DNA from: Beroe forskalii
Lineage: Eukaryota; Ctenophora; Nuda; Beroida; Beroidae
NCBI GenBank assembly: GCA_011033025.1
Contig: WFMF01000561.1
Span: 1-64,000, forward strand
Reading direction: 5' to 3'
Length of the DNA stretch: 64,000 nucleotides
Part shown: positions 9,061 through 49,900 of the stretch, piece after piece
Layout: each line of letters begins with the position of its first letter
Numbering within the stretch: the first letter of the stretch is position 1
The notes under the pieces: generated by a model
The model's input: the letters and a program-made list of their open reading frames with translations, nothing else
What the model was told of the DNA's origin: nothing
Databases searched by the model: none
Made by a program: the position numbers and the translations under genes

Positions 9061-9217
9061 TTTGCACGCCCGTGAAAATGCCAGTTATATTCTCCTTTTA
9101 ACTGCATAGTAGGAGTTATTTGAACGGGAGTGGTGATAAGAATTTTGAAAGATATACTCATTGTATCTATGATGATTGTGAAATATAATTGGACAATTAA
9201 TGAACTAAATATATGAA

Positions 9218-19549: not shown

Positions 19550-22500
19550 ATGAGTAGTATCTACAACTTAGAGCCGGTTACGAAGGGCAAGGTGTTACTG
19601 ACGACGTCTCACGGAGAGGTCGAAGTGGAGCTGTGGGCACGGGAGGTATGGAAAAAACTCGTTTGTAGACATTGAAAATTTACTTAAAATGTTCTTGTGT
19701 TATGTGATAAACCTATGTACATTTTGATAATATTTAAAGATATCTGGTGCAGTGTCTGTTTATTTGTACTGAAACTGACTGAAATCGGTTTACGATGAAT
19801 CATATAAAAGATACATGACTCCATTTTAATTTGCATTAAATTTTGCGTACTCTCTTCTCGTATATCAAATACCAGAATTTTCTCTAGAATATTCCGTAAG
19901 ACCTTTAAAAAGTACACTTACAGGCTCCCAAAGCATGCCGTAACTTCGTCCAGCTGTGTATGGAAGGCTACTACAATGGGACGATATTCCATAGACTTGT
20001 CAAAAACTTCTGTATTCAAGGTAGGCGCTCTATATATTTTCATAGACTTGTCAGAAACTTCTCTATTCAAGTTAGGCGTTCAATATTTCATAGACTTGTC
20101 AAAAACTTCTGTATTCAAGGTAGGTGGTTCATAATATTCCATATAGATTTGTCAAAAACTTCTGAATTCAAGGTAGGCGCTCCATATTCTATATGCATAG
20201 ACATGTCAAAAACTTCTGTATTCAAGGTAGGTGGTTCATAATATTCCATAATTAGATTTGTCAAAAACTTCTGTATTCAAGGTAGGCGCTCCATATTCCA
20301 TATGCATAGACATGTCAAAAACTTCTGTTTTCAAGGTAGACGTTCCATATTCCATAGACATGTCAAAAACTTCTTTATCAAAGTTAGGCGCTTCAGCAAC
20401 ACAGCTAGTTGTACTGTTCGATCACCCCATGGTTTTTATAACTTAATTTTCATGATTTTGCTACCGCGTTTATTTGCCATGGTGCAAATATTATTGCAAC
20501 CCTCCCCTACAAATCCCTTCCACTTATTATTATTAATCCTCTGCTCTTTAATAACAAAAGCCTCATATTCTTGGTAAAGGCAATTTAGCCATAACCCGGC
20601 ACTTTACCAAAAGCCTTATGTCCTTTCAGGCGGGGACCCCACGGGAACAGGAACAGGAGGTAAGAGTATCTACACCGCAGACTTCCCCGACGAGTTCCAC
20701 CAGAGACTCAAGTTCTGCAGACGTGGTCTCGTGGCCATGGCAAACAGTGGGGTTCCGAACTCCAACGCCTCACAGTTCTTTATAACCCTCGGCGAGACAC
20801 CAGAGCTGCAGAAGAAACATACTATTTTCGGTAAGGTTAGTCTTAGGGGAAATGAAGGGCAGATGTTGTTAAAGTTTTGCAAGGTACAGCATCGGCCGTG
20901 GACGGATTTTTGTACAATTAGTCAATTATCGACAGGTAAGGAAGGTTTAAATGTACAGTTGAGGAAGATGTTCTTTTTCAAATAAGAGATCGCCGGGCAC
21001 TACCTTCAGCACTAATGTCGTGGCTTCCTCGGAGGATTTTAAAATCTAGCTGCAGTAAATACTCTGATAACTCGCCTAACCCGTCACAGGTGTCCGGTAA
21101 CACGATATTCAACGTTCTGCAAATGAGTGAGTTGGAGACTGATAACGACGAAAGGCCCCTCGAGCCCCCCTCCATCAAGTCAGCAGAGATTCTCAACAAC
21201 CCATTCGAGGATATCATTCCCAGAATTACAGAGGTTTCAATTTTTTAGCCTACCAACTTTGAAGACATGGACTGATCAGGGTACAACAATTCTGTACTTT
21301 TGTTAGAAGATAAAATACATATAATATACTATCGTTTATCAGGATATATATTCAGTTACTTTGCTTCAGTGCGGCGGCATGAAGCCACGCAACTTCACTT
21401 AAACAACGAATAAAGCTATCTGCCAGTAAAATTGACTCATCAATCACAATTTTATTCTATCTCAGACGACAGATAAGAAGGAAAAGAAGAAAGAAAAGAA
21501 GAAAAGTCAGATGAAGGGAACTAAGAACTTCAAGCTGCTTTCGTTCGGCGAGGAAGCAGAAGAAGACGAGGAGCAGGTGCAAGAGGTGGGAAAATTAGCT
21601 TGTAGCCAAAATTATAATATGCTTTCGATCATTTTACATTTTTCCTTTTTCCCTATGCTTGATAATTGATCAAAAACTCCGTAGGGCAGTGGCGAAGAAT
21701 TTGAGTGTTATCAAATGAATGTTTGATTGGCCGGACTTTTCAATTTTCATTGATTCCGCTGAAGTCTCAAACCTCGACAATGAGGACTGGCAATTTGATA
21801 AACACCAAAAATCATTGAATTTATGCTTATCGAAATTCTAATTTAGCCTAAAACAGACACACAACCCTACAGCACCACCCCCAATACGCTACCCGTTCCC
21901 TCCAGGCGTCGAGCAAGTTAGGTAAAATCAGCAGTGCTCATGACGTCAGCCAGGATCCCAAGTTGAGCAAGGAAGTAGCAGTCTCAGCAGCTGAATTGGA
22001 GGAACAGAGGGAAACAGTGATGAGTCAAGCGGAGAAAATACGGGAAAAACTGAAGAAGGAACTGGAAGAGGTGAGATCGGCCAAGATCGGGTGGGGGAAA
22101 TGGGGGAGACTCGTGGGAAAAAGGGTTGTATTGAAGGCCTGGATGGTGGCAGTATTCAAGATCTGGATGGTGCCTGGAAAATTTGATACTGTACTTAAAT
22201 TATTGAATTAATCAGTATATTTTATCTACGAAATAAAAGGAAACAAATTCCCCAAATTGAAACAAGAAAATGTAATCATTGTTGACTGCTATGAAGACTG
22301 AAGACTTTAGAGGTGTCACTGAGACTTAGAATCCTTTCTAGTGTATATTTTTGGTAAATGGCGCTCTATTAGTCTATTCTTCTATTGTCCACGATGGTGT
22401 AATTCTCTGCCATCTTTATATAGCATGATCTGTAGTTTCGGATTCCGGTTAATATTCAGCCTCAAACATACTCCAAATCCCGCACGTGCATGCTGATCCA

Positions 22501-25500
22501 CGGTAGGTAGAAGTACACACTGTTATAGACAGACGCTGATCCCACCATGCTGCAGTCCTCGTGAGAAGTGAAGACACTGACCCCCACCAGCGCGTAGGTC
22601 CCCGTGGTCCTGCGACCCACCAGAGGGCCCCCACTGTCCCCGGAACAGAGGCCCCCGGTCTCCGGGCCTTCCTTCTCCGTGCACAGCAGGGAGGAGGCGA
22701 GGCGGGTCACGAAGTTCGGTGTCAGGTGGTCCGACACCTCCACGGCACACGAGCTAATCCGCATGGGTTTCAAAGTCACTTGTTTCAAGCTCCGTGGTAG
22801 CCGGTAGTTCTCATCGTAGCCCCAGCCCGTCACAACGCCCCCTGCTGTGCGGAAACGCCGCAAATCCTCCGCCATCGGCATGCAGGCCACGTTCACGAAG
22901 TCGTTCCGTTCGACAGGCGAGTGCAGCTTGAGGAGTGCAATGTCGTCGAATATGCTATCGTGATAGTAGGAGGTGTAGGGGATGATTTGCGTGATATTGC
23001 GTGACTGACGCGTGAGCTTTTCCGAGTAGGCAGTCGTTCTGGAGACATGTTGACCGAAGGTTAGAGAAAGAGACGTGATGAGAGATTCGTTGTTTAGGAC
23101 CTTGTCCACGCAGTGAGCCGCTGTGAGGGCCCACTCAGGATGAATCAGCGTTGCACCGCATATGGTTTTGTACCCGACATGGGCCGAAAGTAAAAGTCCC
23201 ACCCACGGCCACGAGTGTGGTTTGGCATATTTCGCTTCAACAAGTCGCTTGGTTCTGCGCCGCTGGGATACTCGTTTGATGGATATGGATTCATTTCGGT
23301 TTCTATTGTTAATGGAAGGTGGAAACGCCCTGACTCCACATCTCCGAGCAGCCTGGCCTGGTTTCAGCCAAAATTCAGAAAGATCGGAGCACCCCTTCTC
23401 ATCAGCTCTATCCCTGCAATCCAGAACTCCATCACAGAAGAGCTGGCGTGACTGACACCGACCATCGCAGCTAAACTCACCCTCCGAGCATCGGATCCTC
23501 GGCACATCACAAAGTCCACAACTCTTCCGACACACGTTTGCCACGGCCGAGTTGGAGCAGATGTGGAGCCAATCCGCGCACTTTCCGTACTCATCCCCGC
23601 ACGAGGCGTTGGTGGAGACACACTGGCCGAGGCACCGGGTCTCGTTGCTGTGGCTACCCATAACGAGGCATTTCCCTCGGCAGGTGGAGCCGGGCTCGCA
23701 GTTACTCGCACGCTCGCAGTGCGATATGGTGCTATTCGACTGAGCTGTAGTGGTGTGATCAGTGATCAGAAGGAGAGCGAGGAATACCGAGACGTAAACA
23801 GTTCGCACATCGCCCTTCATGCTCAGCGATATTCCTTGAAATATAACAATCTTGTGAATGAAAAAATGGCAAAACTTTTGGAACGACGAAAATCTTAACG
23901 GAAAACAGATAAAATGACACGAGTCAACTAGTGAAAACGGAAGAAGTGCATTTCACGAGGGTTTACGAATACAAATAATAATTACATGGTGATAAATTAA
24001 TACATCCTGTCCAGAATCTATTAAATTAAAGCTGTAGATAAGATTCATTACTTCATAACTGCCGAAAGAAGGTTTCAGGTGTCATATTTTTGAGATTTTT
24101 GAAGGTATTTATAGTTTGTAATATGATGACTGTGTGTACCAAGATGGCCTCGAGCTTTTTTTTTATTAACCTCATGAAATCGTTTGCGCCGTCAATTATA
24201 AAAACGTTCTGTGATCCGCGAGTGACAACCTTTCAGATGGGTGGAGTAACACAGGTGTTGTGACACGAAACTGGAAAAGAGACTTCTGGGAATGTTCCTG
24301 ACATTTCGACCTGTACGCTACTTGCAAACAGATCTACTTTCTTGTGAGAGGAGGAAGGTTTTTTCAGATTACTAGGGGGTAGTCTGCTGGCAGATGCTAG
24401 GGAGGAGTTGGAAATGGCAAAGGATGTTGACGCACCATATGACGACTGCCTTACTGCTGTTCAACTGTGAGCTGTTACAAGTTTAATTACCTGAGGGTGG
24501 GTACTAAGTGTGCAAGTTGTCTGGTGCAGGAGTATGGTTGTGGGAACGACCAACGTCACGCAATCAAGCAACAAAGGAAGGTTTAATGACTTGTATTATG
24601 GTGCTCGTCATAGTAGATCATTCAAAAAGAGCGAATGGTTTTTGTTCATTTCGCATTATATAATGCACCCAAATGCAGTAAAAACTATAGTCAAGCTAAT
24701 TCAAAAGCGCATATTCGCATATTCATTTAATTCGTGTCGACCCGTATGAGCACTTTGATGTTCGGATGATGATATATGCCTAGTAAAGATTGCAAACCTT
24801 ACGGCTATGTTTTCTCTTTCGTTCTCAGTTCTTGTCGCGTCATTTTGTGTTGAACATTGGTGTGTAGAACTGTATTCGGAAGGAAATAGCCCCGGATTCC
24901 GAAGCAGACGCGACAAGATGATCAGTCACAGACCACCATTTCCAACTTCATCTGATAAAATTGAAAAGAGAGATACGACAAGTGACAGCTGTACGACTCA
25001 TCGTTACGTTACAAATACGTCATCTTCTTCCCTGGTACCTGCCTTTGTCACAGAAACTCCTGGCATGTGTTTCATGTACTGCAGCTTGGAGACGCAGTGC
25101 GAAATCTACGAGTTCCGCGTGAAAAGCCGCACTTGTTCGCTGTATGGGAGCAAAGGACTGGCGTTCAGTGCCGCCCAATCGGATCATGTCATTGTTGGTG
25201 ATATCTATTGCATGTCCTGCTTAAATTTGAACCAAACCCTCCAGGCAACCTTTAGCAAAATGGTGCTTATTCGAAATAGTGTCTCTAAGAAATGTCTCGC
25301 TGTTATGAATGAGCAGAGTAACAAGGGAGGAAAATCAAGCCAGATGAAGTGGATGAGTTGTAACGAGGCTGATTTTTGGATAATTAAGCAACCTTTTCCC
25401 TCAGTAGCCACGAGCTTTAAGATATATAACGTGAAGAAGAACGGAAGTCTACTGTGGAAAGATGATGATGCTAGTAAAGATTCGGTTCTATATTTCGGTA

Positions 25501-28500
25501 CTCCAAGCTACAAAACATTCGATAGGTTCGTTATTCGTGATTTACATGATGGGTGTAAGAGTAGCATTCAGGGTAACAACCCACTAAAAAAACTCTCAAG
25601 CTTCGGGTTTATGCGTCAGTTTTCATTATTCGCAGATGACAGAATTCCTTACAATTCCCGGAATTCGCTTGACATCATTGAATTCATACAGCCCCGTATT
25701 GAGGTGTATAAGTGTCCTTTAGCTCAATTCAACGTGTCCTATGGGTCTCTGATCAACATAAACAATGTACCGTTTTTTATTGAAGGAGATTCCGTTACTG
25801 TGGTATGCTCCGAAGGTCACGGAGTTGCGTCTCAGCGGTTTGCACCATCCCAAACTCTGAGGTGCTCAAGGAATGCCCAACCTGAACCGTGTACTTTCAA
25901 AGTACCAAAGTCAAATGGTACCGAGATCTCAAATTCAATAGATCCATCGATCGATGAGTCCTCCAGCTTTCAATACCAGTTGATCGTGACATGTGCTGCA
26001 GTCCTTGGGTTTGTCTTTGTGATCCTCATCATTGGTGTCTCCTGTTCTGCGGTTAAGGAGCAGGGCGTGCCTCCTCCTACTAATACGGGGGAAGCTGGGC
26101 TGGAGTCCATAGAACTACCAGACACTTTTCAGGTCGTCAATGATGATGAAACTGAGGAGAGTATAACTGCAGAACATCATATTTAGGCAGAAATATAACT
26201 GTTTCTGCATAAATATAACTTGTCCGGCACTTTCCATCATTACAGCAATGATGAATGAATGGTGCAGACTCTAATGAGCTAATAGCAGAACATATATTCA
26301 GGCTTTCAGGCAGAAGTATTACTTTCATCACGAAAACTGTCAACTGCAAAAAACGTCAAGAAATATGCCCTTTTTTATTATAAATTTTATGACCACTTAC
26401 TGTACCTATTTATTTCCTTTCCTTACCTTCAATCAAGAAAGTTTATAACAATTGTGATTTATAGCCAATTATAAGTTAAGTTTCTACTAAACTAGTAAAC
26501 TGATATCATGTGACACTCCTGAGGACCATCTGAGAAGCGCATCAACATTTCATTGTCTGCCTCAAAACATCCCAAGTTTCGAAAAGTGACTGCGGGAGTG
26601 AAATGACATTACACTCTTACCGATGGAAGAAACAGTTCTTTTTAATTGAATAGGCTGATGTTATTCATGTTTATTTCGTAGAATTTCATATCCTCATATT
26701 GCAATTTTTGACTTAAGTCGAACACAAGGGAACGTCGTGACTGGTTAAGGAGTGGATTAGGGAATGCGACGGATGGTTTCGGGTTCTGATGCTGGTTTGG
26801 GAATGGCGAGGCTGGTTTGGGAATGGTGGGGCTGGTTTCGGAATGAAGTGGCCAATTTTGGTAGTCATAAGCGAACTTAATGTTTTTGAGTCAAACTAAG
26901 AACATTTTAATAAAATTTGAGCTATTTTCAGCTCCTCTAGATTTTGAAGCTGACTGGGAATTCCAATATACAGTATATGATAATATCCCACCAGGTTTCA
27001 GAGTGGCCTTCATCTGTCCATTTTGTGACATTAGTGAAATGACGTTTCACAGCTGTTCACTAGGCCTTGCGACGCGACTCACAAATTTGCACTTTTCATC
27101 AAGACAAGATCTAAGAAAGTAATTGAATCATAGAAGCGTAATATTAATGGGGCGGGGCCAAGTCCAATTATGTCCAATTATGTCCAAGGTTAACCTGATT
27201 TTTAGGAATTGGACAAAAAATCATTGGACAAAATTGGACAAAATTAGACAAAATTGGACATATCAACTTTTAAAAATTCGGGAAACTAAATTTCACTCAC
27301 TTGTGGTGTTATGAATTCCACAAAGTCCACAAATAAATTTTTACTCTAGCTCTATATCACAATGAAGGGTGGTCTTGACAGATTTGAGGGACAAAACGGA
27401 AACGGAAACCTACGTATTTTGGCACACTGGAAAGCTGGAAGAACGCCAACTGGCAAATACTAGAATAATGGAAAGACGGAAGTGGAAATGGAAATAATTG
27501 CTGGATAACATTAAATTGCGGTATGGCGAGTGATGTACATTCTGATGTATCACTAACACCAGTCAGACGACAGTCGTATCACTCTGACGTAAGTCTGATG
27601 GCACCAATTTGTCTGACGTATTGCTGACATCAGTTTCTCAATATGACGTTACATGAATTACAGACACCAGTCTGACGTTACATGGAACATAGACACCAGT
27701 CTGATTTCAGACGCATCACTGACACCTGTCTAATGTTGGACACATCACTGACACCAGTCTGACAGATTGCTGACACAAGTCTGGCGTATCACTGACATCA
27801 GTCTTTTGTGCCACTGACACCAGTCTGACGGATTGCTGACACAAATCTGGCGTATCACTGACACCAGTCTTATGTGCCACTGACACCAGTCTGACGGATT
27901 GCTGACACAAGTCTGACGTATCACTGACACGTGTCTTATGTACCACTGACACCAGTCTGACGTATTGCTGACACAAGTCTGGCGTATCACTGACACCAAT
28001 CTTATGTGCCACTAACACGGGACACCAGTCTGACGGATTGCTGACACCAGTCTGGCGTACCACTGACACCTGTCTTATGTGCCACTGACACCAGTCTGAC
28101 GGATTGCTGACACAAGTCTGTCGTATCACTGACACCAGTCTTGTGTGCCACTGATACCAGTCTTATGTGCGACTGACACCATTCTGGCTGATTGCTGACA
28201 CCCTTCTGGTGTATCACTGACACCATAACACTTGTTATATGCCATTGACACCAGTCTGACGGATTGCTGACACCAGCCATGCGTATCAATGGTTTCAGAG
28301 CTTTATCATTGATACCAGTCTAACAGATCATTTACACCAGTCTGACATACCAATGATTCCAGTCAGACGTATCATCGACACCAGTCTGAGTAAGACGTAT
28401 CACTGACACCAGTCTGAAGTACTAGTAAGACGTATCTCTGACACGAGTCAGAACTGCCACCAGTTTGAACTTTGAAGTTAGACGCATCACTGAAACCTGT

Positions 28501-31500
28501 CTTAAATAAGACGTGTCAATGATACCAGTCTGAAGTAAGACGTATCACCGACATCAATTTGACCTATCACTGATACCAGTCTGGCGTGTCGCCGACACCA
28601 ATTGACGTATCACTGACACGAGTCTGATATATATCATCAACACCGGTCTGATGTATAGCTGACACCAGTCCGAATTATCACTGACACCAGTCTGATTTAT
28701 CACTAGCAGCAGTCTGACGTTTAGTTAGACATATCACTGACTAGAAACTGCTGGTAACTGGTTAACCAAATCGTAACCGAAATACTGGTTGAGCAGACTT
28801 TTTTGGCAACTGTAACCGAAACCGTAACCGATTTTTTATTAACTGCTTAACTGATAAGGGAAAACAGAAGGTTTATCAAATAACTGACCCGTAACCGAAA
28901 AATGGTTTAACTGGCCCTTTTTAACTCTAACCGTCACCAGATTTATTGAAAAAAGGAACTGGTCGTTTGCTATCACTGACACGATTCTGAAGTGAGAATT
29001 ATCAGTGATACCAATTACCAGTTTGAACTTTGACGTATCACTGAAACCAGGTTGAAGTTTCACTAATGTATCGTTGTCGGTGGATCATATGATTCTGTTG
29101 TTGATACTACGAACAGGAACTGGTCGATTTAAGCCGAAACAAGCAGAATAGAACAAACCGAAACCACCCCGAACCAACCCAAAATCTTTCCCCAAATGTA
29201 GCCGAAATGATCCGAAACGAGCTGAAACAAGCAAATAAACCCGAAACAAGAGAATCAACCCGAGTCAACCCCAACCCTAACCATAACCCGGGTTGATTCG
29301 CTTACAGTTTCGGGTTGTTTTGCTTGTTTCGGCTTGTTTCGGTTCCTTTCGGCTTGATTCGGGTTGTTTCGGATTGATTTGGCTAGTTCCTACTGGCTAC
29401 TTGTAGTATCGACAATGATTCTGTGAAGAGATCATAGAGAGGTCGTGGTCCTTTGTGATGGAAAGATTAAGAAAGAATGTTGGTTCAGAATGCCGTGGTA
29501 ATCACTAATCACTAATGTAGTCCACCCAATAGAGTAATGAGCTCATGAGCTCATGAGCTCTGTACTAACAAAAAGTAACCTTTAACTAAGTAATCACAGA
29601 ATCAAAAAATCTTTTGTTTCAACTTTAATATTCATTTTCATTTCCACTTTTTGCCTGTCGATGTTCTTCCACTATATAGGCTATATCATGAAGAGTTAAT
29701 TTCCGAAGGAAAATAGGCTACTATAGATACCATGGCTATAGTCATATTTCAATCTACGAACTACAGTACAGAAGTGCTGTTGTCCGATCTGCCCATGGTT
29801 TGTATTTTCAACTATGTAATTATATTTGATGAACTAATCCAAAGCTATACAGCCTAAGAGAAGGAAGCAAAAAATGTCCAATTTTGTCCAATTTTGTCCA
29901 AAGTTAACCTCATTTCTGAGAATTGGACAAAAAAGCATTGGACAAAATTGGACATAATTGGACAAAATTGGACTTGGCCCCGCCCCTATTAATAAGTGTT
30001 TTCTTTCCAGGCAAAGGAAGAAGCAGCAACGGTCAGCACTGAAAACGACGACAAAGTCAAGACTCTGAAAGATGAGGCCGATAAACTGATGAACGAGATC
30101 AAGGGTAAATTTTCATGACGTACTATGAAAGTTTGAAATAACTGACGTATTTAACGAACTTTCAAAAACGTGGGGGCCAAGACTCATGAACGACCTGTAC
30201 GCTTATTTGTTAAGTTGTTATTACTCACATTACCTAGAGGTATGTGATTTGTTAAACAAATTTTGATTCTAAGCTGCCAACGCACCTCTAGAGCCCTAGA
30301 GTCTAGACATTATGGGTCTTTCTTGCTTTCTTGGGACACGTACTGTATTACTATTTTACTACTTTACTAGTTGCAACATGTTATAACTTTGTTATTGCGT
30401 TGGTGCGGGGAAACATGAGAAGTGTGTGTTTATAGTGAATGTTTGCTGTGTCTGAGCTAGAAAAAAAGTGTACGGGAGAGTCAAATGTCATAAAAAGTAA
30501 CCATTTTGCTTAGTTTGTAATGACGATGTCAATGCATGTTTAGAACGAAGTAATTCAATAGTCATCACCCTGCTAGGTATCGGCAAGGAGGAGAAGACTA
30601 ATAAAGGTGCCTCGTCTGAGAAGGATGCTCGTTTGAACGAAGAAGAAAAACAAACTGTTAATCAGTTTAGGCGAAAATTAAAGGTTATACAATAAACAGC
30701 ACTTAATAATAACATAATATATTAATTTATTGTTATTTTCATGGGTTATTGATGGTATTTTTGGTTGATGACATCTTTATTGATTAGAAACTTCAAAGAT
30801 TGAAATGCCGCATAGAATTTATATTAAAAAGTTAAAAAGCCAAAAATTTTAAATTCCTCAGGAATTCAAGGAGCAACAGCTTGAAAAGAAGCCAAAAACT
30901 AAATCTCAACGAGAAAACCAGGCTCTTTTAATTCTAGAAAAGTTTAAAAAGCTGAAAGAAACAGACGCAAAAGAGGTATCAAATATTCACAGAGTCACAT
31001 TATGCATTTTACGTGCTCTGTGGATTTTTCTAGTATTCTGATAAATTTCATGCTCTCACTCAGTCTACTCAGCTGGCATGTCGTATTCGCTGTTATTCCA
31101 GCTAATACTATACCAGCTAAAACTATAGTAGTGTACCGTACCGAGTATATAATAACAAGAATTGTACTCGTTTTTCCCGACCCCAATTTCTTTGGAAATT
31201 CATCATCGTAGATGGTCTCAATATGGTAGTTCCAGTTATGTTAGCACTTTCTTAATACTAACTATTGCAGCTTCCCACTTTCTGACCCATCGTCTTGTCC
31301 CTTATCCTCTGTTTCAGTTGTATTAGTTGAACCATTTGTCAAAGCCTTTAGTGGAGCTTCAATGTGGGCCCTTATAATTTCATCTTTGCCAGTGGAGCTA
31401 ATCATGTTATCGTCCTCCAAAAATCCAGCTTTATTGACTGCTGCCAGATTAGCTGGGTTAGCTTCTTGCGTTGTCGGATGAGTATCTTGATCATTCTCAC

Positions 31501-34500: not shown

Positions 34501-36712
34501 ACCAAAGAGAGCCTACTTCATCTTCGCCTTCCATACAGTCCGTTATGTTATCTGACAGCCATGATATCGGAATGGATCTCTCTGTTAATCCTGGCCTGCC
34601 TCGTCTGATGCACTTCCTCACGGTCATTGATGAGCACATTTCGTGAAATTCGTCACTGGCGCTTGGACAGTCAGACTCTTGGTCACAAAGCTTGTGTTTG
34701 TGAACCAGGCATGTTGGTGTTACATACTCACACTTGTTTTCAAGATTGTCATCGCAAACAGGAATTAAGTTTCGGCATTCCATGAACTTTGAAACTGTTG
34801 AAAAATAGTTATTCACGAGACAATGAAACCCTACTCTCTCCACGTCGGTGCAATTTGTTTGATCTATAAAATTAGTGCAAGTAGGCCATATTTCCGTCAT
34901 TCTATCAAAAGTATGTCGATCAAAAGTAAAAGTGTCATACAAAACTGCGCATCTCATATTTTCAGATATCTTTACTTCAATTTCATACTTACTGTTATTG
35001 TATTTGTATGGTGATTCAATGGTGATTGTACAAATTTGATTACCATCATTCCCTTCTTCACATGACTTCCATTGATATTCCTCATCGCCACACACTGTTA
35101 GTTTTTGTGGAGCTGTAACACGGTAGGAAGCACAAACCTCGGTTGGGTGAAGGTATCTCACATCGACCCCACTCGAAACATCTCCGTCGCAATATATCCC
35201 ATAAAGCATATCATTGCAGTATGCCTCGTCTTCGCAGTCTAAATAATCACATTTATCATTGCAAATTTTATCCTTAAAAATCGTTTGCCCTGTAGGATAG
35301 AATTCTGCAGCTATCTTTGGACAATTCGCTTCATCAATCATTGTGTTCCAGCAGTCTCTTTTCCCGTTACATTGTATTGAATTGGGAGCTTCAGAGCTTA
35401 GAAAACCATCTGTATCATCAAACTGTATATTCATACACAGGAACTCCCCACATAGGGCCTCTCCGCCCTCAACTCCTTCCACCAAACTGTTGAATCCTGG
35501 TAGTGTGCCACACAACTGGTAAAAGTAGGGGTCTTTTGGGCAAGTTTCATGGTGGCCAACGTCATAGTATAGGTCTGTGTTGATGCACCTGAAGAAGGTA
35601 TACCCTCGTCGGTGTGTACAGACATCCTTCATGAACCCGCCAAACTCCTTCAGCTCACACGAAAACGTATCATCTGAAACATTGGCATATCAAGAATTAT
35701 GGTTAGGTCGATTAAATGAACGTTTTCAAATTTCGTTATCTTTAACTCTTTAATTTCATCAATTCATATTATGAAATTATGAAAGTTCCTTCCTTACTAT
35801 AGCTCTATGGATCAGACAGTTTTTTAACCGAGTATTATATTTTATTGGATGGTCTGATAGTGATGGTTTTCTTGTCATAAAGGTATTAGGAAAATTAAAT
35901 CTCCGATCTCAATCTCATTTTTTATTCTTTTATTGATAAACCTCTAGATCCACTATAGTTTCCTCGAATTTTCCGAAATTCAACATAATTATCATTCAAA
36001 ATACATAAATGTATTATAAATTTTATCATAGCTAGGACACACCAACCTTCTGCCGAAGAAACCAACGCTACACCGCTCAAGAGTAAACCAATCAATGTTC
36101 CATGAATCATAAAATGCTCTCTATAATGCATTGAAAGCATGTTCTAGCGATTCGGATGATAAAATTTCAGATCAAAAATGCAGTAGTAAGTAACACAAAA
36201 AATCTTCGCTCCCTCTGATTTCAGTAACGACTGCATATTATATAGGGAACCAGGAAAACAAATGATCCATTCTTATCCGAATATTCTTTTCTGAAGCCGC
36301 ATTGTCACCCACATGTTTTAATGACACTTGCCTGCAATGCGTCGCTCCATTGCTTGCCATAGTGTCGCATCCTTACGTCTGGAGTATTTTGTTGTTGTTT
36401 CTGAAGAATCGTTAAATCATAGTCCATGCCTCATTGGTCCGTCAGCAACAAAAAAGCAAAAAGATCGCAGGTATGGCTCTGAAAGGGAATCGAGCGAAGC
36501 ATCGCAGGTGTCATTCAAACATGTGGGTGTTAATGTGGCTTTAGAAGAGAATATTCTGAAAAGAATCAGAGTGTCAGAAAAGATCATTTGTTTGGCTGGT
36601 TCCCTATTTTAAAAGTTTAAAGCCCGCTTAGATCATAGGAGCAAAAATGACAAAATTTAGTGTTGCACGATGGGGTAGATGAAATACTTGGATTTTCAGA
36701 CTTTCAGAGTAC

Positions 36713-36743
<31 letters not shown>

Positions 36744-37795: not shown

Positions 37796-39191
37796 AAATG
37801 GAAAAAATTATTCCATGATATGCTTGATGCTGGATTATTGGAAGGAAGATGCAAGGAAGATCATGCAGAACACATCAGTATTTGGCTGCAAACATTCATA
37901 ATGCAATTATCAGAAGACTATAACTAATTATAAACGCTAATCAAGGTATTAATATGTATGATCTATCAATTGAGCAATTGGAACTTGGAAACTTGAAGAA
38001 AGACAGTCGGACTCGTGCGAAACGATCTCTTATATCGTCGGATGATTCACGATTGATGATCTTTGACCAAAAAGGTTATAGTTGTATCATTTTTTTTCTT
38101 CGAATCCGGAGCTTTCGACCAAATTTTACCACCAGTTGTTGACACTTTTTTAATTGATATTTTTCATCAATTATAGTGGGTGCTGTTTTCATAGTTTTGA
38201 CTTCGCATACATACCACAGTATTGAGTTTTGACTTTCTGTTAATTTCTTGATATCCTGATATTTCATTTCCTTATTTTCCTTTTATTTATTTACCAATCG
38301 TAATATATCTTAGATAATAGGTATCTAAGACCTACTCGGTCGTAGTGCAATTGAGGGTGCAATTTCTTTTAGAATATTCTTGGATATTTTATAGTTTCAC
38401 GAACATCAATAACATTTATTAGTCATGAGAGAGTAAGAGGCTGCAAGCCAGGAATCAGATTGAATTTCCAGTATTTAATGAGGATACCATGTTGTTAATT
38501 TGTACTATTTTTTCTATTTTATTGTTGCTTACAAAAATCTTCCTGACTTTTGTTCAAATTCAAATTGCCCAAACGTTTTCAAAAGCTCTTTTTCCTGAAA
38601 GTATTGCTAAAATCCTGATAAGTGTCTATTGACTAAATGGTTCATGGTTCATCTTTGTTGGAATTCTTTCAATCAAATACTGAATTCAAAAGTCCACAAT
38701 CAAATTATAATCTGTTTTTGACTACTCTCCCCTTTTGAGCTCAAGTAATAGGCTTGAACACCCTCATTCGAGTTCAAGTGAATCATGCGGTGATCCAGTG
38801 TTATCATCAAAGTATTGGACTGTGTTATCTATGATAATAATCAAGAGTGCAATCAGTATTGGACCGGATAATCAGTCGAATTAACGTGTATCATGACGTT
38901 CTTCATGAAATCTAGATTTGTTCGCAAGGCAACCTACCCCTTGCAGCTTCATCACCTGAAAAGCTCAATGAAAGGTTAGCATGAGCTTCGAAATGATTTA
39001 CCGGGAAGCAAAATGCCTTTATTTTGATTCCCACTTTTGACTTTGTATTGGAAATTCAATGATTTGCGCGCTAACTCGGCCGGTCACATTTGTTTTTAAA
39101 AGTTTGTGGAGCGCGCAAATACAGTTTGGTGATGGTACTGGCGCAAAAATTGAATTAATGCGCCGCGCGCGCGAAGCACGCACGTAAGTAG
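37796..39191. other. spacer between CWC27 and PTPMT1
   Basis: AT-rich 3' region of CWC27 and upstream DNA of the next gene. A CpG-rich patch (CGCCGCGCGCGCG) lies near 39160. No further gene is seen. Confidence 0.4.
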
Positions 39192-39290
39192 AAAATTTGG
39201 CCTTCTTCGACATCATTCGGTTTCGTCGACTAACGTACGTACGTTTATTTCTTTGACGAAGCCGGATGAAATCGGAGAAGGCCAAATTTT
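39192..39290. repeat. imperfect hairpin abutting the PTPMT1 start codon
   Basis: AAAATTTGGCCTTCTTCGAC at the left pairs with its near reverse complement ending GGAGAAGGCCAAATTTT at the right. Stems are about 36 bp, with an ACGTACGTACGT loop. It ends three bases before the ATG at 39294, so if transcribed it would be a strong 5'UTR stem. Confidence 0.7.
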
Positions 39291-39293
39291 TCA

Positions 39294-39945
39294 ATGGACA
39301 GTCCAAATTCAATTTCAGATGATGATCTTGACTGGTACAACACAGTAGACGACACTGTGATACTAGGAGCTATCCCTTTACGTAATAAATCAAGCTGGAT
39401 ATCCAATCTTGTAAGTTTCTGAATTCTGTTAACATAGTTTGAACTTTTGCTAGATGCCTGGGCTGTGACCTCCCACTATACTAGAATGGTTTCGTTTCAT
39501 AAGACAAAGTTTCGTAGTGTATACTGACTGAACTTCGTTTCAGAACCTAGGTGGAGTAGTGTCTCTCAACGAAGCATACGAAACAAAGAAGACTTTTTCG
39601 GTGGCGGAATGGAAGGATCGTGGGGTAACAAATCTTAAATTTAAAGTGGCAGACCACGTTGGGGCCGCATCCCTCGATCAAGTGAAGGAAATAATTGATT
39701 TTATCGAGGAAATAGGGGGCTCAGGGAAGCAAGTGTACGTTCACTGTAAAGCAGGCAAAGGGAGAAGTGCAAGTGTCGTGATGTGCTACTTGTGCCGAAA
39801 ACACGGGATTTCACCCGGCCAAAGTTTTGACTTGTTGAAAAGTAAGAGACAACAAATTGACTTAGGTGCAAAGCAGTGGCGACTTGTTCATAAGTACTGT
39901 AATACTGTTTTGTTACAAGACGATAGCGTTGTTGTAGAAAAGTAG
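39294..39945 (+). CDS. PTPMT1: PTPMT1-like dual-specificity phosphatase
   Basis: PTPMT1 dephosphorylates phosphatidylglycerophosphate in mitochondria, a step in cardiolipin synthesis. Two exons, 39294-39410 and 39544-39945, give 172 aa. The family start of the domain is clear (DWYNTVDDTVILGAIPLR, then VVSLNEAYET). The active site is HCKAGKGRS with Cys107 and Arg113 (HCx5R) and a likely general acid Asp76. An in-frame TGA at 39267 precedes the chosen ATG, so this start is the first available unless an upstream exon splices in. The protein is shorter than human (201 aa) because the hydrophobic N-terminal targeting segment is absent. Mitochondrial location is therefore unproven here. Confidence 0.88.
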
Positions 39946-40008
39946 AAACTTAGTTGAAGGAATGATTTTAGAGCTTTTAAACGTCTTTGCTAATTTTTTT
40001 TTTTCTTG

Positions 40009-40014
40009 AATAAA
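40009..40014 (+). terminator. polyadenylation signal of PTPMT1-like gene
   Basis: AATAAA 64 bp after the stop codon, following a T-rich stretch. Confidence 0.65.
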
Positions 40015-40946
40015 GCGGATATTTTATTTTGTTTCTGTAATAGTTTCTGTTATGATCTTTTTAATACCTTAAACTTTTTTACTTAATTTATACCTTTGCA
40101 ATGTACCTTGCTAATGATTTTATTACGATTAAATTAAATTAAATATCGATTTAATTAATATTATTTAGGCTACTAAAGCTTACTGGATTCTGAGATACTC
40201 AACTTAAATTCTAATGCGCTATTCATTACTCATTGTACTAAGTAATTCTCCAATTATCTTTAAAACTTATAGTTATCCCAATTGTAATCACCTGTTAAAC
40301 ATAATCGTGTGCTAATCATGAGGGACAAGTTGAACAATGAAATTATGAAACGTATTTTCCAGTAAGAATAACAAAACATTAAATTTCTGAAAATATTTAC
40401 ATTTTATACAATACAAATATTAAATTAAATGATAAAGCTGGACAAACTTTCTCTGATCTGACTTGAGTATATAAAATTAAAAGCTGTCAGTTGGTAAAAG
40501 GATAACCAACCACATTTGAGATATTTAACAGTAATAATATAAAAATAAAGAGGGAGACAATAAGATACCAATTAATGCTGATTGGCAACGAATTATATTC
40601 CAAATTAGACCTTATTTAACCGGCCCTTAAAGACCAAACCGGCTTTGCAATTTTTTCCTTAAGACTGGTTAAATTGAAAGTCAATTAATTAAGTAACCAC
40701 TGTCCAGTGTCTACTATACACCGTCCAACTTAAGCGTTTATTAATGAAACTTCAAGTCCACTGGGGCCTGAGTATTCTGATACTGTAGTAAGTATTCATT
40801 GCATCTGTTCGATCATCATCATTAAATGAGTAGTCCAGGAAACTTTTCGTAGGAAAGATTCATGTCAATACAAGTCCGATGTCTGAATTTTGGACCTCTT
40901 TGAAGTCTGCTACTGCAGATAGCACCAGGATACTACGGGATAACTT

Positions 40947-43900
40947 TTAAACGGGATGCAGTATCCTTGCGTACAAACAGTACTGTAGCAGGGGGATGAC
41001 TTTGAGGTTTGAAATGTCATGTAGGACTGCCTCAGCTTCAGATGGTGTGGTCACCTGGGTAGTTGGATAAAGGTTTATAAGGGATGGCTCATTTCATTAT
41101 TTCGAGGGAAAAGTGGTATCATAAATTCTCAATAGTAAATAAAGCCAGTACGAATTATTAATTAATTTCGAAATTAAATATAACGATGCATCAGCAATAG
41201 CTCAATTAAGCAATTAGATTGTCTGGGCATACAGAAAGTTCGAAGTGGTGCATTAATGTTGACTCAAGATAGATGTTCTGGCAGCTTTCACTTTTCATAA
41301 TACTAATACGCAGCATGTGCCAGAGAATGCAAAGCATTTTTGCTCATTAAACAGTCAACAAACGTTTAACAAGTCATTAACGGCAACCACTTCGTCGTAT
41401 GCTGTCTGTTCGTACCTCCATTAGGTTGTTTCGTCTGAACGCGAATATAGCAACAGCCAGGACAGGCAGAATTTCCAGAGTGTTGTAGCCGATAATCCTG
41501 TCCCAGAGTAGAAGCAACTGAGAGGTGTCCAGGTACCCTACAAAACATAACAATTATATTCTAGTACTGCAGGTGTCGCGAGGCGGGGGGGATGGGGGAA
41601 TGGGGATGGTCCACAAATTTCCAATTCGTACGGCACCATCTTTATGATTTCTACGCAAGGGATCGTTCGCATATCACGTAATCAATTTTTGGCCGATTTT
41701 AACCCCCCATTCCCCTCGTAATCAAGTTTACAGTAGTTGTATTTGTTACAATAACATGTAACGTAATCATTCAGAAACTGAACCCCCCCCCCCTAAGTGA
41801 TTACGTAATATGTGGACGATCCCTTAAAATGGCATTCCATCGAACATAGCAACGTAGAAAATCCAAGACTATTTTTTTCATTTAAAAAAGTTAAATCTCT
41901 GTCTTCATATGCTGTCTTATCATGGCTATCTCCTACTAGTACTAAATGGGTATCAGTAAAGCTCACCTGCGAAGGCGTGCATGAGCCAGTTGAAAGCGTG
42001 TTTGAGGGGGTGGGAGCCCATCTCTCGAAGATGGTAGAAGAGTTGGGGCTGGTGGGTTTGGAGCAGGGTCTCAAATTGGAGACACAGGGACAGGATTCCT
42101 GAAATCAACCATGTTTACAGTTCTTGCATAAATAATATGGAGTTTTAAATTAGGGGCGATGTATAATTTTTGAACTCTGGAAAGATTTTTAGAGATTATT
42201 GTGTCTGAAAATACGTGTTGAAATGAATGGGAAAGCTCTCCAATAATAGGGCGAAGAACGCAGTCAGATAATTGTAGTAATACTTTGGACTCCATTGTGT
42301 AGTCACGTTAACTCCAACCTGGCCTGTTAACCATTCATACCAGTCCTCATGCTTGCAGGCAAACTATAACCTGATGATTGACCAGATTCTGTCATCGGGA
42401 TTATCCCCTGTTTTGAAGTTTTAAACCAATCCACTTCCAGCAAACCCCACGGACGCGGACAGAGAATAGACAATTAAACGTCACAAATTTGCCCTTCTTA
42501 ATCACAATAACGACGTCACGTTCGGTTGCTAAGGTGATTGTTTGCGGAGATATACCCTGCGTGCGAAAAATAGGCGGATATTTTCAACAATTCGGCAGCG
42601 GGCACAATGTAAATGACGTCTTCATGACCGCCTATTCATTAATACCGAACGTACCTTGCTCGTGGCTGGAGAGCGAGTGAAGGCGGAAGAAATAGCGGGT
42701 GTAGAAGGCGAGAAAGACGTTGTAGATGATGACCGGGTCGCTCCAGATGAAACACATGGGCGCCAGGTAGAAGGAAAATCCGTGGAAGGGAATGATGCCG
42801 TTCGGAGGGTAGGTTACCGTGTGTTCTGCGGAAATTAGGTTTCTAGGTTACTGTATGGTTAGGTTACTGTGAAATGGGAGGCTTTTAGGTTATTAAACTG
42901 CATCAACATGATAGAGCAGCATGTTGTGAGGATGGGTTATTGCTTTGTAGACAATAAGAATAAGTGTTGATGTTGCTTAAACTCTCCAATGGTCACGTAT
43001 TCACAGTAATTAAGGAATAATATGCAATTCGTATTATGCCGCTGTTCATGCGTCCAAACCCGTTCAATTTGAAAGTACTAAAGTAGACGCGTCGAGTTCA
43101 ACTCAGTATTGTTCAACTGTTTTAAGTAGGTATGAATAGATCGCGAGAAATAAAATCTCTCCTGTACCCATTTTGCTGCATGTAAAGGCGTGAGGTGGGT
43201 TGGCTGAGGTGTTCTTACCCATGTTGCTGCGCGTGAAGGCGTGAGGTGGGTTGGCTGAGGTAGACTTACCCATTTTGCTGCGAGTGAAGGCGTGAGGTGG
43301 GTTAGCTGAGGTGGTCTTACCCATGTTGCTGCGAGTGAAGGCGTGAGGTGGGTTGGCTGATTCTTACCCATGTTGCTGCGTGTGAAGGCGTGAGGTGGGT
43401 TGGCTGAGGTAGTCTTACCCATGTTGCTGCGCGTGAAGGCGTGAGGTGGGTTGGCTGAGGTGTTCTTAACCATGTTGCTGCGTGTGAAGGAGTGAGGTGG
43501 GTTGGCTGAGGTGTTCTTACCCATGTTGCTACGAGTGAAGGCGTGAGGTGGGTTGGCTGAGGTATTCTTACCCATGTTGCTGCGAGTGAAGGCGTGAGGT
43601 GGGTTGGCTGAGGTGTTCTTACCCATGTTGCTGCGTGTGAAGGCGTGAGGTGGGTTGGCTGAGGTGGTCCGGAAGTGCTCCAGAAGGTGGGTATCCCTGC
43701 TGAAGCAAAGGAGGATCTGCACCACCAAGTCTTCGAACACGAAGTAAGCCTCGTGGTTACCGGCCGTTAGTCGGACATCTTGCAGGAAGAGCCGGTCTAC
43801 CAATAGCTCGTACCTATAGGATAATGTCATGGAATTAGGGCTATGAGGCGGCAGTTCAATTAGTAGGTATATGAGATCTTTAGTAAAGGTTATTACCAGA

Positions 43901-46900
43901 GGGATTGTCGATGCATCTTATGAATAGTGGTAGTCTTTAGTATTGTGGAATGTGGATGCGATAAATTTAAAGACATCATTTTATCAGTTATAGATATTCT
44001 CCTTTTTTTAATGACTTGAAAATTGTAGTTCTGACAGCCGCTCATTCACAGTTGCTGATAACTCACTTGAATTTGAAAACGCTAAGTAATATCTCACTTG
44101 AAAACGCTACGTGACAACTCACTTGAAAACGCTAGCTCGCAGCTGGTGGTAGTACTGGTGATCGTGAGGGGTCAGGTTCACCCCCAGAGCAAGGAGCCAC
44201 AGCTCACCTCTCTGAGTGGGGTAGCACCCCTGCTGCAGGTATCTCTGGGCCGTGGGGGTGTACCCCAGCTGAACGGCCTGAAGTGAGGTAGGGGTGAGGG
44301 AGCAATTCATAGGAACTGGTTGAAGTGAGGGAGAGCAATTCACAGGAACTGGTTGAAGTGAGGTAGGGGTGAAAGAGAGTAATTCATAGGAACTGGTTGA
44401 AGTGAGGCAGGCTTGAGGAAGAGCAATAAAGCCCAGTTGTCAGACGTTGTCACGCGCGCGAAGAGGGTCAAACAACGTCTGACAATGGCCCAAGGGTGAG
44501 GATTTGATTAAAAACATTGATAATCATGGTTACACAATTGTCAAATAAGAATTATGCCTGACGTCTTAAAATTGGAATCTTATTCTTATATAAGGGTTCG
44601 GGTGAATAATTTAAACATTTGCCTATTACAAACGTTAGGGGCCATCCATTAAGGACGTCCGCAATGAGGGGGGAGGGGGGAGTCTGACCAATGCGGACGT
44701 TTGCGGACATAGGGGGGAGGGGGGTGTTTGGCCTAATGCGGACGTCCGCAAATTATGGAAATTTTGGCCGAGTTGACGGTCATTTAACCAGAAAATCGTG
44801 AAATTTCGGGCCCAGAAATGATGAACCAAAAGATTTTCATAAAAAATGCGGACGTCCTGGGGGGAGGGAGGGGTTTCTGAAATGCGGACGTTTGCGGACA
44901 AGGGGGAGGGAGGGGTCTAAAATGGCCGAAAATTTGCGGACGTCCTTTATGGATGGCCCCTTAATGATCTATATCAGGTCAATCTTCGTTAACTGCTCCA
45001 TTAAATATTCCTAAATTCCAAGCGGAACCTCGTAAATATTAGACACTCGTACATTCATCACTTAGCGATAATTCATCACTTGATAATCAATAGCAATAGC
45101 AATGTAATTGAATATTTAATGTACGAGCCGGATTGGATGTGGTCTTACTCGTAGAGGTTTGGAACTAAGGATAAACAAATGCCTTCTTACGGTTTAATGT
45201 TTACATTTGGCTAACCATACTCCAACTCCAAGTTGATTTGATCAAAGCATCGTGCTTATAAATCGATTTTTCGCATTTTCGCCTCATGCCTAAAAAGTGT
45301 GACCCGGAGCATAGTCAAGTTGATCGCCTTTCGGGCCAATTTTTTCTAGTTGTTATGAGCACTGGGGTCAACTTTTAAGCACAGGAAAAGGGTCTTTTGA
45401 ATCTAAATAGTACCTTGACGCCGAGTCTTTGCCATTCTGCATTGGTCCCCTCAATGTCGTCTGCCCCCGTTTGGAAGTGGTGAGTTGAGAGGTTGGAGAA
45501 CAGCACCCTCAGTTGCTGAGTCGTCTTCAGATGCAGTCGGACCTGCGAGGCAAGGTTAGCTCATGAGCTCCATCGACGGCAAATTAGACCCGTTCTAGAC
45601 AGGGATTTTTGAGGGGCTATTAATAGCTCGAGCTATAGCTCGAGCAAGCCTGTCTAGAATGGGATTTTTCGATGACCCCGGCTATAGTACCGGCTATAGG
45701 AGGGGTAATTAGTTGGAGTTAAACAAATGCTATAGCTCCGGCTATAGTTCGGGTCATCATTCCTGTCTCCAGAAAGCACTCTGACCCCAGCTATAGCTCT
45801 CTCTGATACACGTGACCCTGTCACGTGGTGCGCGTCATGAAAACAACGCGAAATAGGAAGCAGATCGTAGTTACGCATCATATCATTTGTTATTGTAACA
45901 TTACACCTTTTTGCACACGTGACACTAGGCGTAAGCTGACAGGAGCTATAGCTCGAGCAGCCCTGTCTAGAAAGAATTTTGTATCGGACGATATCCTGGG
46001 TCGGCGTAAAGGGTCACCCTGTATAGAAAGACAGAAAGTAACTCCGACCCGAGCTATAGCTCGGGCTATAGCCCCTGAGAGCTCCTGTCTAGAACAGGTC
46101 TTAGTTAAAAACTTTATTTTATTTTTTTTTTAAAGTTTTTAGTGTTTTTTTGGTTTTAACACTTTGCCCAAGAGACCGGAAAGATTTCCAGTTGAAATTG
46201 ACCATTGACCGGCATGCGAAATAGTAACAATCAACTCGTTAAATGATTGGTCAAGACGATTTTGGGGTCCAATATCAAATATGATGAAATCGAATATACT
46301 ATATAGCGTCGCCCATGGTAGTGTTTAAATTTAATATCACATGCACCTCAAATGTAATTAAACCATGAGGAAGTCTTCCATAGTATTGCTCATCTGCAAA
46401 AACTAGTAACTTGTTAAGTTATTAAGGTATTACTGCATTGTAAGAGCCATGTAATTATAAAATCCTTAGGTATCTTCTTTTGTTAATCAAATTCATAATT
46501 AATAAGAAGGAATGAGGAACGACTTAACATTTGACATAGGCAGTAGAAGAATATATGTAAGTTTGCAATTCGCTTAATAACCATAGTGAATTTAGATGTG
46601 TAATGAATATTATTATGTATTATCACATGACCTCACAAAGTCTCAACATAATTCGTTAACTATTTGATTGGTACTGACTATTCTACGGCCAAACAACAAT
46701 ATTTCTTCACACTCGGGTCTGACGACCCTCGTTCGGATTCATCGCTTTAGCTAGTAGATTTTTCAGTGCTCCTTTATTAAAATCAAATGTAATTTTTAGC
46801 TTTTTTGCACTTTTATTCAGTGACCGTATCACCAAACTTACACGGTCACTAAAACAAGCTTGTGGGGGTATAATATTAAAATTATGTATCATCACATTAT

Positions 46901-49900
46901 CTCACAAAGTCTCAACAGGTTGCATGATTCTTTAACTATTTGATTGCAGATAATTCGATTAACGGAAGGCGCGACTCGATGACGAACTCCGCCTATCAGT
47001 CGACCTGCACACCTGATAATGCGTAATTCTCTCGAATCGTTACTTAAAAACCTCACCGCCACATAATAACTGAACTTCGAATCTTCTAGTGCTGTTTTTT
47101 ATAACAAATAGTGATAGGAAATGATGTGTTTTTACTAGGATATTGCTCATTGTTCGTAGTAAAGAATCGCACTGAAATTCGAAACTAGGAAGTTTTGCTG
47201 GAAACGCCACTTTAGGTCTGGTATCTATTTGATCGTTACTCACTTCTACAATTTGACTTATTTTTATCGCATCACTTCCAGTTCATCCAAATCACATTAC
47301 TGAGTTTTCTTTTGGTTCCATAACCAGCAGCACGCGGCACAGATGTCGCCATATCAGCTGAGAACCATTCTCAGATTTCCAGAAAGGCGCCACATTTCAC
47401 CATGACTCGATTGTCATTCTCTTGACATCTGCCCGCTGCCGGGCAACTGCGTACAACACCCTCAGATTTAATGGTCACATAGAAACAATAGGCGGGTAAC
47501 GGGTTCAGGCACTATAAATAGGCAGGCAATGTATAGGTCACGACCCTGGACCTAAATCGTTATTCTTTATACCTTTTATATCCCTAACCAGTCTAACCTT
47601 TGCAATAATCCTTTCCTGGACCCTCACCATATACCATCCCTAACATAACCCGAACCATATCCGAGTATCCGGCTGCATAAACCCCTTCCTGTCTATTATT
47701 TGTGCATAACCTCGCCTATTTTTCCTGTGTGATCTGAAGGGGTAATTTACTAAACACAACCACAGATTACTTACTTCGCATACTCACTCCACGGCCCACC
47801 TCACGCACTCCACTTCTGCTGCCACTCACTTTACTTCGCAAACCCCACTCACCCGAATCAGAACCCACTCACCCGAATCAAACCCCACTCACCTGAATCA
47901 AACCCCACTCACCTGAATCACAACCCACTCACCTGAATGAAACCCCACTCACCTGAATGAAACCCCACTCACCTGGATGAAACCCCACTCACCTGAATCA
48001 AACCCCACTCACCTGAATCAAACCCCACTCACCTGGATCAAACCCCACTCACCTGAATCAAACCCCACACGCTCGTTCCCGATCTCTCGTTCACGTCCGA
48101 ATGATCGTATATCTTTGCTGTGTAGTTCGGTGACGATAGTGACGTCAGCACTTCCATGAAGTCCTTGGGAGCGTAAACTGGCCGTATGTCGCCCATGTTC
48201 TCATCTCCGAACGCCATGTCCTTCCACTTCTGCGTGAAGTCCGCCTGCTCCCGGATAGTCCTCATCCGAGCCAGAGGAATGGTTTTCTCAGTGCACATCG
48301 TGTTGATGCTCTTGAGAATGCGCTTTTCCCACCGACTCTGCAACGGTGGAGAGATGTTAGTAAAAGTGTTCACATCACTTTCAGTTGATTTCCAACTGTG
48401 TCTTTATGACACTAAGTTCATATAACGCGGTTATATTCTATCGCAAGTATAGGATAATCAGTCCATTTCTACTCAGGTTTGGGCATGAGAAAAAGCATCA
48501 CTCATCAGATAACTCCTTCTGCATAGCTCTTTTACTGCAGGGTATTATAATGGTATTGTTTAGTGTCCCCGTTTAAACCATGGCCACGCTGTCATGAGCA
48601 CGGAGAAGCAACATGCTCTCCTGTTACTATTTAACTCTTCGCACGAGAAATAGGCGGTTTAACGTCATCAACTCACTACATCATGATATGATAATGACAT
48701 CATTCTACCCGCCTATTTCTCGAGCGCAGCGTATAGAGCGATTCTATTCTGCTTCACCACATGCAAGATTTTATCGGGTTGTTATGGCGCCTGCAGGCTC
48801 TGACATTTATGTTTACAGTAACACAACTTTTCTATCGCCTGTTGATATATCCTGTGACCTGTACCCATACTTTACATTTAACCAGGTTTTAACTTGGGTT
48901 TAACAAAAAGTCTTGGAACTTTTATAAGATAGGATCGAGCTTCAAAGGGTAAAACGGCCTGAGATTACAATATTTAATTCCGCGATTCTTAGTGAAGCTT
49001 AGACATGTATTCGGTATGAACTACAAGTTTAGCTGGCATCATTAGCCCGGTAATTGTAGAAATAAGAAAAATTTATCCGGTAAGACCTGAATAATCCGAA
49101 TATCTATTCATAATCATTGAGGATAAACCTGCAATTGATAAATGCCGGACGGTTAATCCATAGTGATGGTCTCGGATAGCAAGTTAGTGACGTCATATAC
49201 ACCTTGATTTTCGCTTTTATTCTTCTCCGGAAATAATATGCAAGGAAAAGCAATGAACAGGCATATTTCAATGGATATACCTATCAACTATTCCTCACTA
49301 TTTTATATTTTATGTCGAATGTCGGATATACTAACTTTTTACTGATCTGCCTTGCCGCCTGACTTTGCTTCTCATTTCTTTGTGCAAGAGTGGAGAGTAG
49401 ACTTTACTTAAAGAACGCTCTCATTGTTCTCGTTGCTGTCTATGCTATAATACATAGACAATCGCCTGATCGGTTCCATATTGGTTTAGACCCTCACCCC
49501 TCGGGCTGCGGATCTAGACTACATAGTGGATACATCGTCCGGGCTGCACCTTTAAAAACTAAGGGGGCCTAAAATCTAAATTTCCAGAAGCAAATTTTCA
49601 TTTTTCAAGCTTAAATTTTCACTAAGCAGCAATATAACGGGTGATGACTATTTATCTGGAATTATTTCAATGTATTCTTGTGGCCAAATCGAGATCATGT
49701 TAGAGCTCAGATGTGCTTATTCTGGACCTAAAAAGTCTGCTGATTCAGAATAACATCATGAGAAAATTTGAAAACCCTGTTTTCCCATGCTACTGGCCGA
49801 TTAGTTTGAGGGGGTACAAAAAAATCTTGCACAAATTCAAAGATTGACTTCCTGACATATGATCGGAAAATTGCATACAGGAGCATTCCCATCAGTTGCC

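Follow-up and report, generated by a model that had tools for sequence, protein, structure and literature searches.

Tandem repeats that run across the boundary between an exon and an intron have been described in several settings. In the human genome, internal tandem repeats at such boundaries are reported to be minisatellites, with a mean unit of 30 bp and four copies (PMC2812944). Repeats have also been linked to introns in fission yeast (PMC3629103) and in Cryptococcus, where copy number differs among strains (PMC2395259), and a model of intron gain invokes the duplication of AGGT segments (PMC4974935). Since human, fission yeast, and Cryptococcus cases have been published, boundary arrays as a kind are already known. 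For ctenophores, one published genome is given as 13% repeats according to Tandem Repeats Finder (TRF) (PMC8527503). Here, we describe boundary arrays in the ctenophore Beroe forskalii, in 64,000 nucleotides (nt) of contig WFMF01000561.1 (assembly GCA_011033025.1, positions 1 to 64,000, referred to here as the window). Exons of two genes in the window, CWC27 and a TBC1D19-like gene, end in serial copies of their own 5' splice site. What seems unusual here is the copy number of the arrays and how often they are met. In all likelihood, they are ordinary minisatellites of a minisatellite-rich genome, in which expansions that straddle a junction are tolerated.

Results

Exon ends and their donors form minisatellites

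TRF returned 44 rows for the window, and the ten rows of at least 80 bp and at least 2.8 copies span 2487 nt. The original prediction, that CWC27 exon 2 and exons 3 and 6 of the TBC1D19-like gene each end in an array of their own donor, was borne out: all three arrays were recovered, with a unit made up of the exon end plus the GT donor, and a fourth, at exon 5 of the TBC1D19-like gene, was added (Table 1). The exonic sequence inside the array amounts to 31 nt in CWC27 exon 2, 16 nt in exon 3, and 44 nt in exon 6. The CWC27 unit carries the exon end AAG/GTAGG (the slash marks the junction), that is, CATAGACTTGTCAAAAACTTCTGTATTCAAG/GTAGG... The arrays consist of head-to-tail, imperfect copies of a unit within the 10- to 100-bp range of minisatellites, and they cover the splice junction and include exon sequence in the unit, as internal tandem repeats do. 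The three units differ from one another, and a genome search allowing up to three mismatches, which gives lower bounds, matched them only at their own gene or at a duplicate of that gene elsewhere on the contig (at least seven matches for the CWC27 unit, all at the CWC27 locus). As originally argued, they are therefore not one dispersed repeat family.

Joining CWC27 exon 2 to exon 3 gave no gap at the junction in an alignment with human CWC27 (4r3e_A, E value of 2.3e-45), so the exon-adjacent copy is the one that gives the conserved protein. In all cases checked by homology (CWC27, a saposin exon, and the myosin acceptors of regions L055 and L085), the outermost site was the conserved one, at both intron ends, and the protein alignments suggest that the spliceosome uses the exon-adjacent site. 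The claim that this copy is the real donor in all three window arrays is supported for CWC27. For the minus-strand gene, which is provisionally taken to be TBC1D19, it is tentative and relies on resemblance to the human protein; searches of Pfam and PDB gave no match confirming the name. Exon 6 of this gene is nevertheless coding, since all 6 differences that its 191 nt show from a further copy of the gene are synonymous. Within the repeat copy of CWC27 exon 2 (19990-20020, plus strand), the encoded residues read HRLVKNFCIQ, compared with HRVVPGFIVQ in the human protein, with loss of PG, and the part of the exon beyond the array is nearer to the human sequence than the part within it. Homogenization of the array may have altered the coding end of this exon.

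Units containing AG/GT, found in two of the three window cases, together with published fission yeast introns built of 24-nt repeats (PMC3629103), would be in keeping with new introns arising from duplicated pieces of exon that carry AGGT (the Rogers model), caught in the act. We nevertheless regard this as very improbable. The acceptors of the three window introns lie about 240, 340, and 2300 nt past the far end of the array (CWC27 exon 3 begins at 20630), and in none of the three are both splice sites placed within repeat copies. Because the acceptor is found beyond the array, each of these arrays sits in a preexisting intron.

Donors and acceptors are hit at equal rates in exons chosen by homology

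The original prediction had gone further in suggesting a genome-wide process that amplifies exon-intron junctions, for which an excess of arrays at donors over 3' splice sites and shuffled positions would count as support. We compared donors, acceptors, and random positions on exons defined by Pfam matches, irrespective of repeats. The genome contains 78 myosin head and 45 TCP1 chaperonin matches, of which 111 of 123 were used, in 56 short regions; the 12 left out comprised 2 myosin matches, 6 in a second, near-identical TCP1 gene, and 4 other long TCP1 matches, and 135 kinase matches were not used. Splice sites were placed by score beside the match ends, and 13 of the 111 donors lacked a flank or a scoring site. 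A junction was counted as hit when the 18 nt around it recurred with at least 14 matches no more than 110 nt away on the intron side.

In this homology set, 3 of 98 donors (95% confidence interval, 0.6 to 8.7%) and 3 of 111 acceptors were hit (Fisher P = 1.0), compared with 290 of 4188 random intron positions and 11 of 5316 positions in exon interiors. Donors were not hit more often than random intron positions (odds, 0.42; P = 0.16), whereas donors and acceptors together exceeded exon interiors (6/209 versus 11/5316; P = 2e-5, with neighboring random positions being nonindependent). In this small sample, then, no amplification specific to donors was seen, and an excess at donors was supported neither against 3' splice sites nor against random intron positions. 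This gives an initial estimate of the background: in the 111 sampled exons, such a duplication is present at about 3% of junctions.

TRF found repeats on either side of introns in this set. Arrays straddle the acceptor in L055 (34 bp x 5.1), L085 (78 bp x 2.8), and L071, with 11, 38, and 27 exonic nt, respectively, and marginally in L052; they straddle the donor in L044 and marginally in L060, and the array of L097 begins at the donor. The L075 array is confined to the exon end, arrays in L059, L042, and L044 end 2 to 4 nt before the acceptor, and a two-copy donor duplication in L079 falls beneath the TRF score. TRF arrays cover 2718 of 54,895 nt (5.0%) around the homology-set exons; counting larger arrays only, they cover 2487 of 64,000 nt in the window and 12,003 of 180,000 nt in stretches L012 to L029. 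The latter are 18 ten-kb stretches taken in even steps along four contigs named by an earlier search for an 8-nt pattern (L013 contains one match of that search, and half of L027 is N).

A home-made exon finder run over 244 kb badly overpredicted and was replaced by the homology-defined exons, and a simpler scored exon list served as a rough check only. This list excludes L016, L021, L022, L024, and L028 (rich in mobile elements by eye), exons wholly within arrays, and exons longer than 330 nt. In L012 to L029, it gave hits at 2 of 58 donors and 4 of 58 acceptors (a clear exon being visible by eye at L020 only among the four) and at 990 of 15,493 random positions; the repeated fraction of random positions was 4.7% in the window and 6.4% in L012 to L029. 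Pooled with the homology set, these stretches yield 5 of 156 donors and 7 of 169 acceptors (P = 0.77).

Arrays recur in other genes

As the original prediction had suggested, such arrays recur at further exons outside the window. In L020, a 35-bp unit comprising the end of a saposin exon and its donor runs in at least 92 copies from 6802 to 10000, the end of the stretch, and the alignment of this exon to saposin C reaches nearly to the exon end. The prosaposin-like region has an acceptor array as well (5305-5483, 51 bp x 3.5). Plausible exons stand at two donor arrays in L018 (16 bp x 68 and 15 bp x 21) and at one in L027 (78 bp x 4.4); Pfam gave no match for the exon at the 15-bp array or for that of L027.

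A search for pairs of AGGTRAGT gave 1916 matches in the whole genome, and the reversed pattern gave 7251, but large arrays contribute disproportionately to such counts, so enrichment was not judged from them. Among the matches listed for AGGTRAGT pairs, we examined 12 distinct places, and four of them (L030, L033, L039, and L040) have clear donor arrays at exons. Pfam supports the exons of L030 (M1 peptidase) and L039 (WWE); it gave no match for L033 and L040, whose exons were recognized solely from their open frame and splice sites. The L040 array has at least about 70 copies, as judged from the spacing of the matches listed. As for the remaining places, L034 is a doubtful donor case, L041 is an acceptor duplication, and L035, L036, and L037 have arrays on or close to the acceptor side, that of L037 beside a replication factor C exon (Pfam); at L031, L032, and L038, an exon was looked for and none was seen. 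Having been selected by a donor motif, this set of 12 is uninformative on enrichment. Pyrimidine-rich repeats lie immediately 5' of the acceptors in L037 and L039, the L039 exon being flanked by repeats on both sides, and the polypyrimidine tract of these acceptors may thus be supplied by the array. A tandem pattern of 8 nt, AGGTAAGTAGGTAAGT, occurs at 9 places in 8 loci, at none of which was an exon seen; five of these loci appear to belong to a single dispersed element, and one lies within an array.

The high-copy donor cases (at least 92 copies in L020, 68 by TRF in L018, and at least about 70 in L040) and the four clear donor arrays among the 12 places could be taken to indicate that 5' splice sites are preferred targets of some amplifying process, such as replication stress or repair where the intron begins with GT-rich sequence. 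Such a process appears unlikely, given the donor-motif selection of the 12 places, the equality of donors and acceptors in the homology set, and the preponderance of the reversed pattern over the donor pair genome-wide, even though large arrays weigh heavily in that last comparison.

Donor columns are not specially conserved

Selection could retain the extra donors as backups or for in-frame isoforms differing in repeat length, as the exon 6 array would permit: its 51-nt unit equals 17 codons, and an open frame of 250 amino acids crosses the copies. To score deviation from the consensus, six donor arrays were aligned to their units. Against all other six-column windows, the donor core ranked as ordinary in each array (P = 0.13 to 0.69; combined P = 0.38), and the GT alone deviated in 5.0% of pooled cells (P = 0.5). 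Pooled cells of the six-column donor core were in fact less diverged than the rest, which would favor selection. However, the reading frame is not kept across units of 20, 35, and 16 nt, CWC27 copies contain in-frame stops (by eye), and the exon 6 array has half the length in the second copy of the gene. Retention of redundant donors by selection, which the original prediction had offered as an alternative, therefore seems quite unlikely, and we found no good evidence for either retention or loss of extra donors.

Several observations weigh against treating these arrays as ordinary minisatellites that are indifferent to donors. In the pooled cells just mentioned, the deviation was 3.6% in the donor core and 5.9% elsewhere (P = 0.001). 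The samples are small, and the upper limit of 8.7% for donors leaves room for a modest excess over the 6.9% of intron positions. Two of the six hits in the homology set are borderline, with 14 of 18 matches, and are not clear arrays (the L073 donor and the L068 acceptor). Among scored exons of the window, 3 of 29 donors and 0 of 29 acceptors were hit, and by eye L012 to L029 contain four donor arrays (L020, L018 twice, and L027) but one clear acceptor array (L020, 5305-5483). This lean toward donors was not repeated in the homology set. When exon 6, which is over the length limit, is included, window donors reach 4 of 30 (P = 0.05 to 0.15 against the 4.7 to 6.9% of random positions and P = 0.013 against the junction rate of 3.1%), an excess that is weak because the window was selected for these arrays.

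Copy number changes between two gene copies

About 53 kb downstream on this contig (C649:95983-101149, regions L098 and L099), the units of exons 6 and 3 recur in a further copy of the TBC1D19-like gene, which is either a tandem duplication or an uncollapsed haplotype. Exon 6 encodes the same protein in both copies (6 synonymous and 0 nonsynonymous differences), and its flanking introns are 97 to 99% alike, but the array has 9.9 units in one copy and 5.0 in the other. The exon 3 array has 11.5 and 12.4 units, in surroundings that are 88 to 92% alike. Comparison of the two gene copies thus reveals the change in copy number that is typical of minisatellites. Since indels break the frame of exon 3 in the second copy, this copy may be decayed or else poorly assembled near the contig end. 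Such indels, and the ease with which copy number may be misjudged, would also fit an assembly artifact, with repeats collapsed or inflated. That the arrays as such are artifacts is scarcely credible, because copies within arrays differ from one another, arrays are present in both gene copies, and the same feature occurs at unrelated loci.

Coordinates and other features

Table 1. Exons and tandem arrays of the window
Feature	Position	Strand	Basis and remarks
CWC27 exon 2	19924..20020	+	First repeat copy made up of the final 31 nt; GT donor at 20021; translation and alignment to human CWC27
CWC27 exon 2 minisatellite	19990..20392	+	TRF rows of period 54 and 109, about 7.5 copies, 78-85% match
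TBC1D19-like exon 6	43623..43813	-	Donor ATGG/GTAAG, in the array copy closest to the exon body
TBC1D19-like exon 6 minisatellite	43165..43666	-	TRF, 51 bp x 9.9, 91%; unit is the exon 6 end plus donor
TBC1D19-like exon 3	48053..48337	-	Ends GTTTGATTCAG/GTGAGT
TBC1D19-like exon 3 minisatellite	47839..48068	-	TRF, 20 bp x 11.5, 92%; unit ATTCAG/GTGAGTGGGGTTTG
TBC1D19-like exon 5	44123..44277	-	Sequence and scored exon list
TBC1D19-like exon 5, fourth and smaller donor array	44073..44134	-	TRF, 25 bp x 2.5; unit TAGCGTTTTCAA/GTGAGTTGTTACT; absent from the original prediction
33-bp repeats in the intron, directly adjoining the exon 5 acceptor	44300..44420	-	TRF row to 44363, remainder by eye

The unit of the 33-bp repeats at the exon 5 acceptor resembles the intron end and not the exon. 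A perfect array of 17 bp x 12.5 (100% match) at window positions 63453-63664 is probably very young. In an intron of CWC27, a block of about 2.8 kb (27154-29985) has inverted GGGGC..CCAAGTCCAATTATGTCC-like ends and is filled by a TGACACCAGTCTGACGTA minisatellite; it looks like a mobile element carrying a satellite. A predicted exon (LDMGGHGGGDKDAAKENFKKKSMFGFVVMCSAI...) occurs three times at a spacing of about 1 kb (56597-56805, 57671-57879, and 58721-58824, minus strand) and represents a small tandem array, either of genes or of exons.

Outside the window, the mitochondrial contig C1134 (L010; 13.3 kb) has a derived COX1, with TGA read as W. ARAGORN, run with the bacterial code, found no tRNA on it. 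Its frames 4338-4694 and 7600-8652 have their first ~50 residues in common, and a long frame follows a gene that we presume to be ND5. We infer that these features are compatible with ctenophores (PMC6991124).

Discussion

The reading that we favor, ordinary minisatellites whose junction-straddling expansions are tolerated, would start from tandem duplication at random positions, presumably by slippage during replication or by unequal exchange. Such arrays make up some 4 to 7% of the sampled sequence. Duplications in exon interiors would mostly be purged by selection, and intronic ones would persist. Arrays straddling a junction could persist as well, because coding sequence and a functional site would be retained in the exon-adjacent copy, and extra copies would only lengthen the intron. 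Tolerance at both ends would account for donors and acceptors being hit alike, at a rate between those of exon and intron. Since both intron ends are affected alike in the exons sampled, and no more than intron positions elsewhere, a special amplifier of splice sites is not needed; where minisatellites abound, splice-site arrays need no special cause.

More tentatively, and with considerable doubt, the observations may be read jointly to mean that serial, near-identical sites (up to at least 90) are present at a few per cent of the splice junctions in this genome and that the outermost copy, i.e., the 5'-most donor or the 3'-most acceptor, gives the conserved protein, as it does in the cases checked by homology. 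If this were true and RNA nearly always picked the outermost copy, exons would have to be marked by something besides the strength or nearness of splice sites, and every array would be a ready test of the outermost-copy rule. At both intron ends, the arrays amount to natural assays in which near-identical splice sites compete with one another. They are also a likely source of misannotation, of variation in intron length, and perhaps of variation in protein length.

Compared with known systems, the present arrays resemble the human boundary repeats in being exon-intron minisatellites whose copy number varies between paralogues. The human cases as reported involve recent segmental duplications and intron changes backed by RNA, whereas ours lie in conserved genes, reach at least 92 copies, and are described from DNA (PMC2812944). 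As in the 24-nt tandem-repeat introns of fission yeast, the unit combines a proto splice site with exon sequence, but those repeats are described as forming a new intron and ours occupy one end of an existing one (PMC3629103). The repeat expansion that creates introns in Cryptococcus is similar in that repeats include exon ends and in that slippage or unequal exchange is proposed; its unit of about 107 nt contains a full intron, unlike the units found here (PMC2395259). Finally, the AGGT duplication model likewise has a duplicated segment that bears splice-site sequence (PMC4974935), whereas in B. forskalii no new intron is seen and the acceptor lies outside the array.

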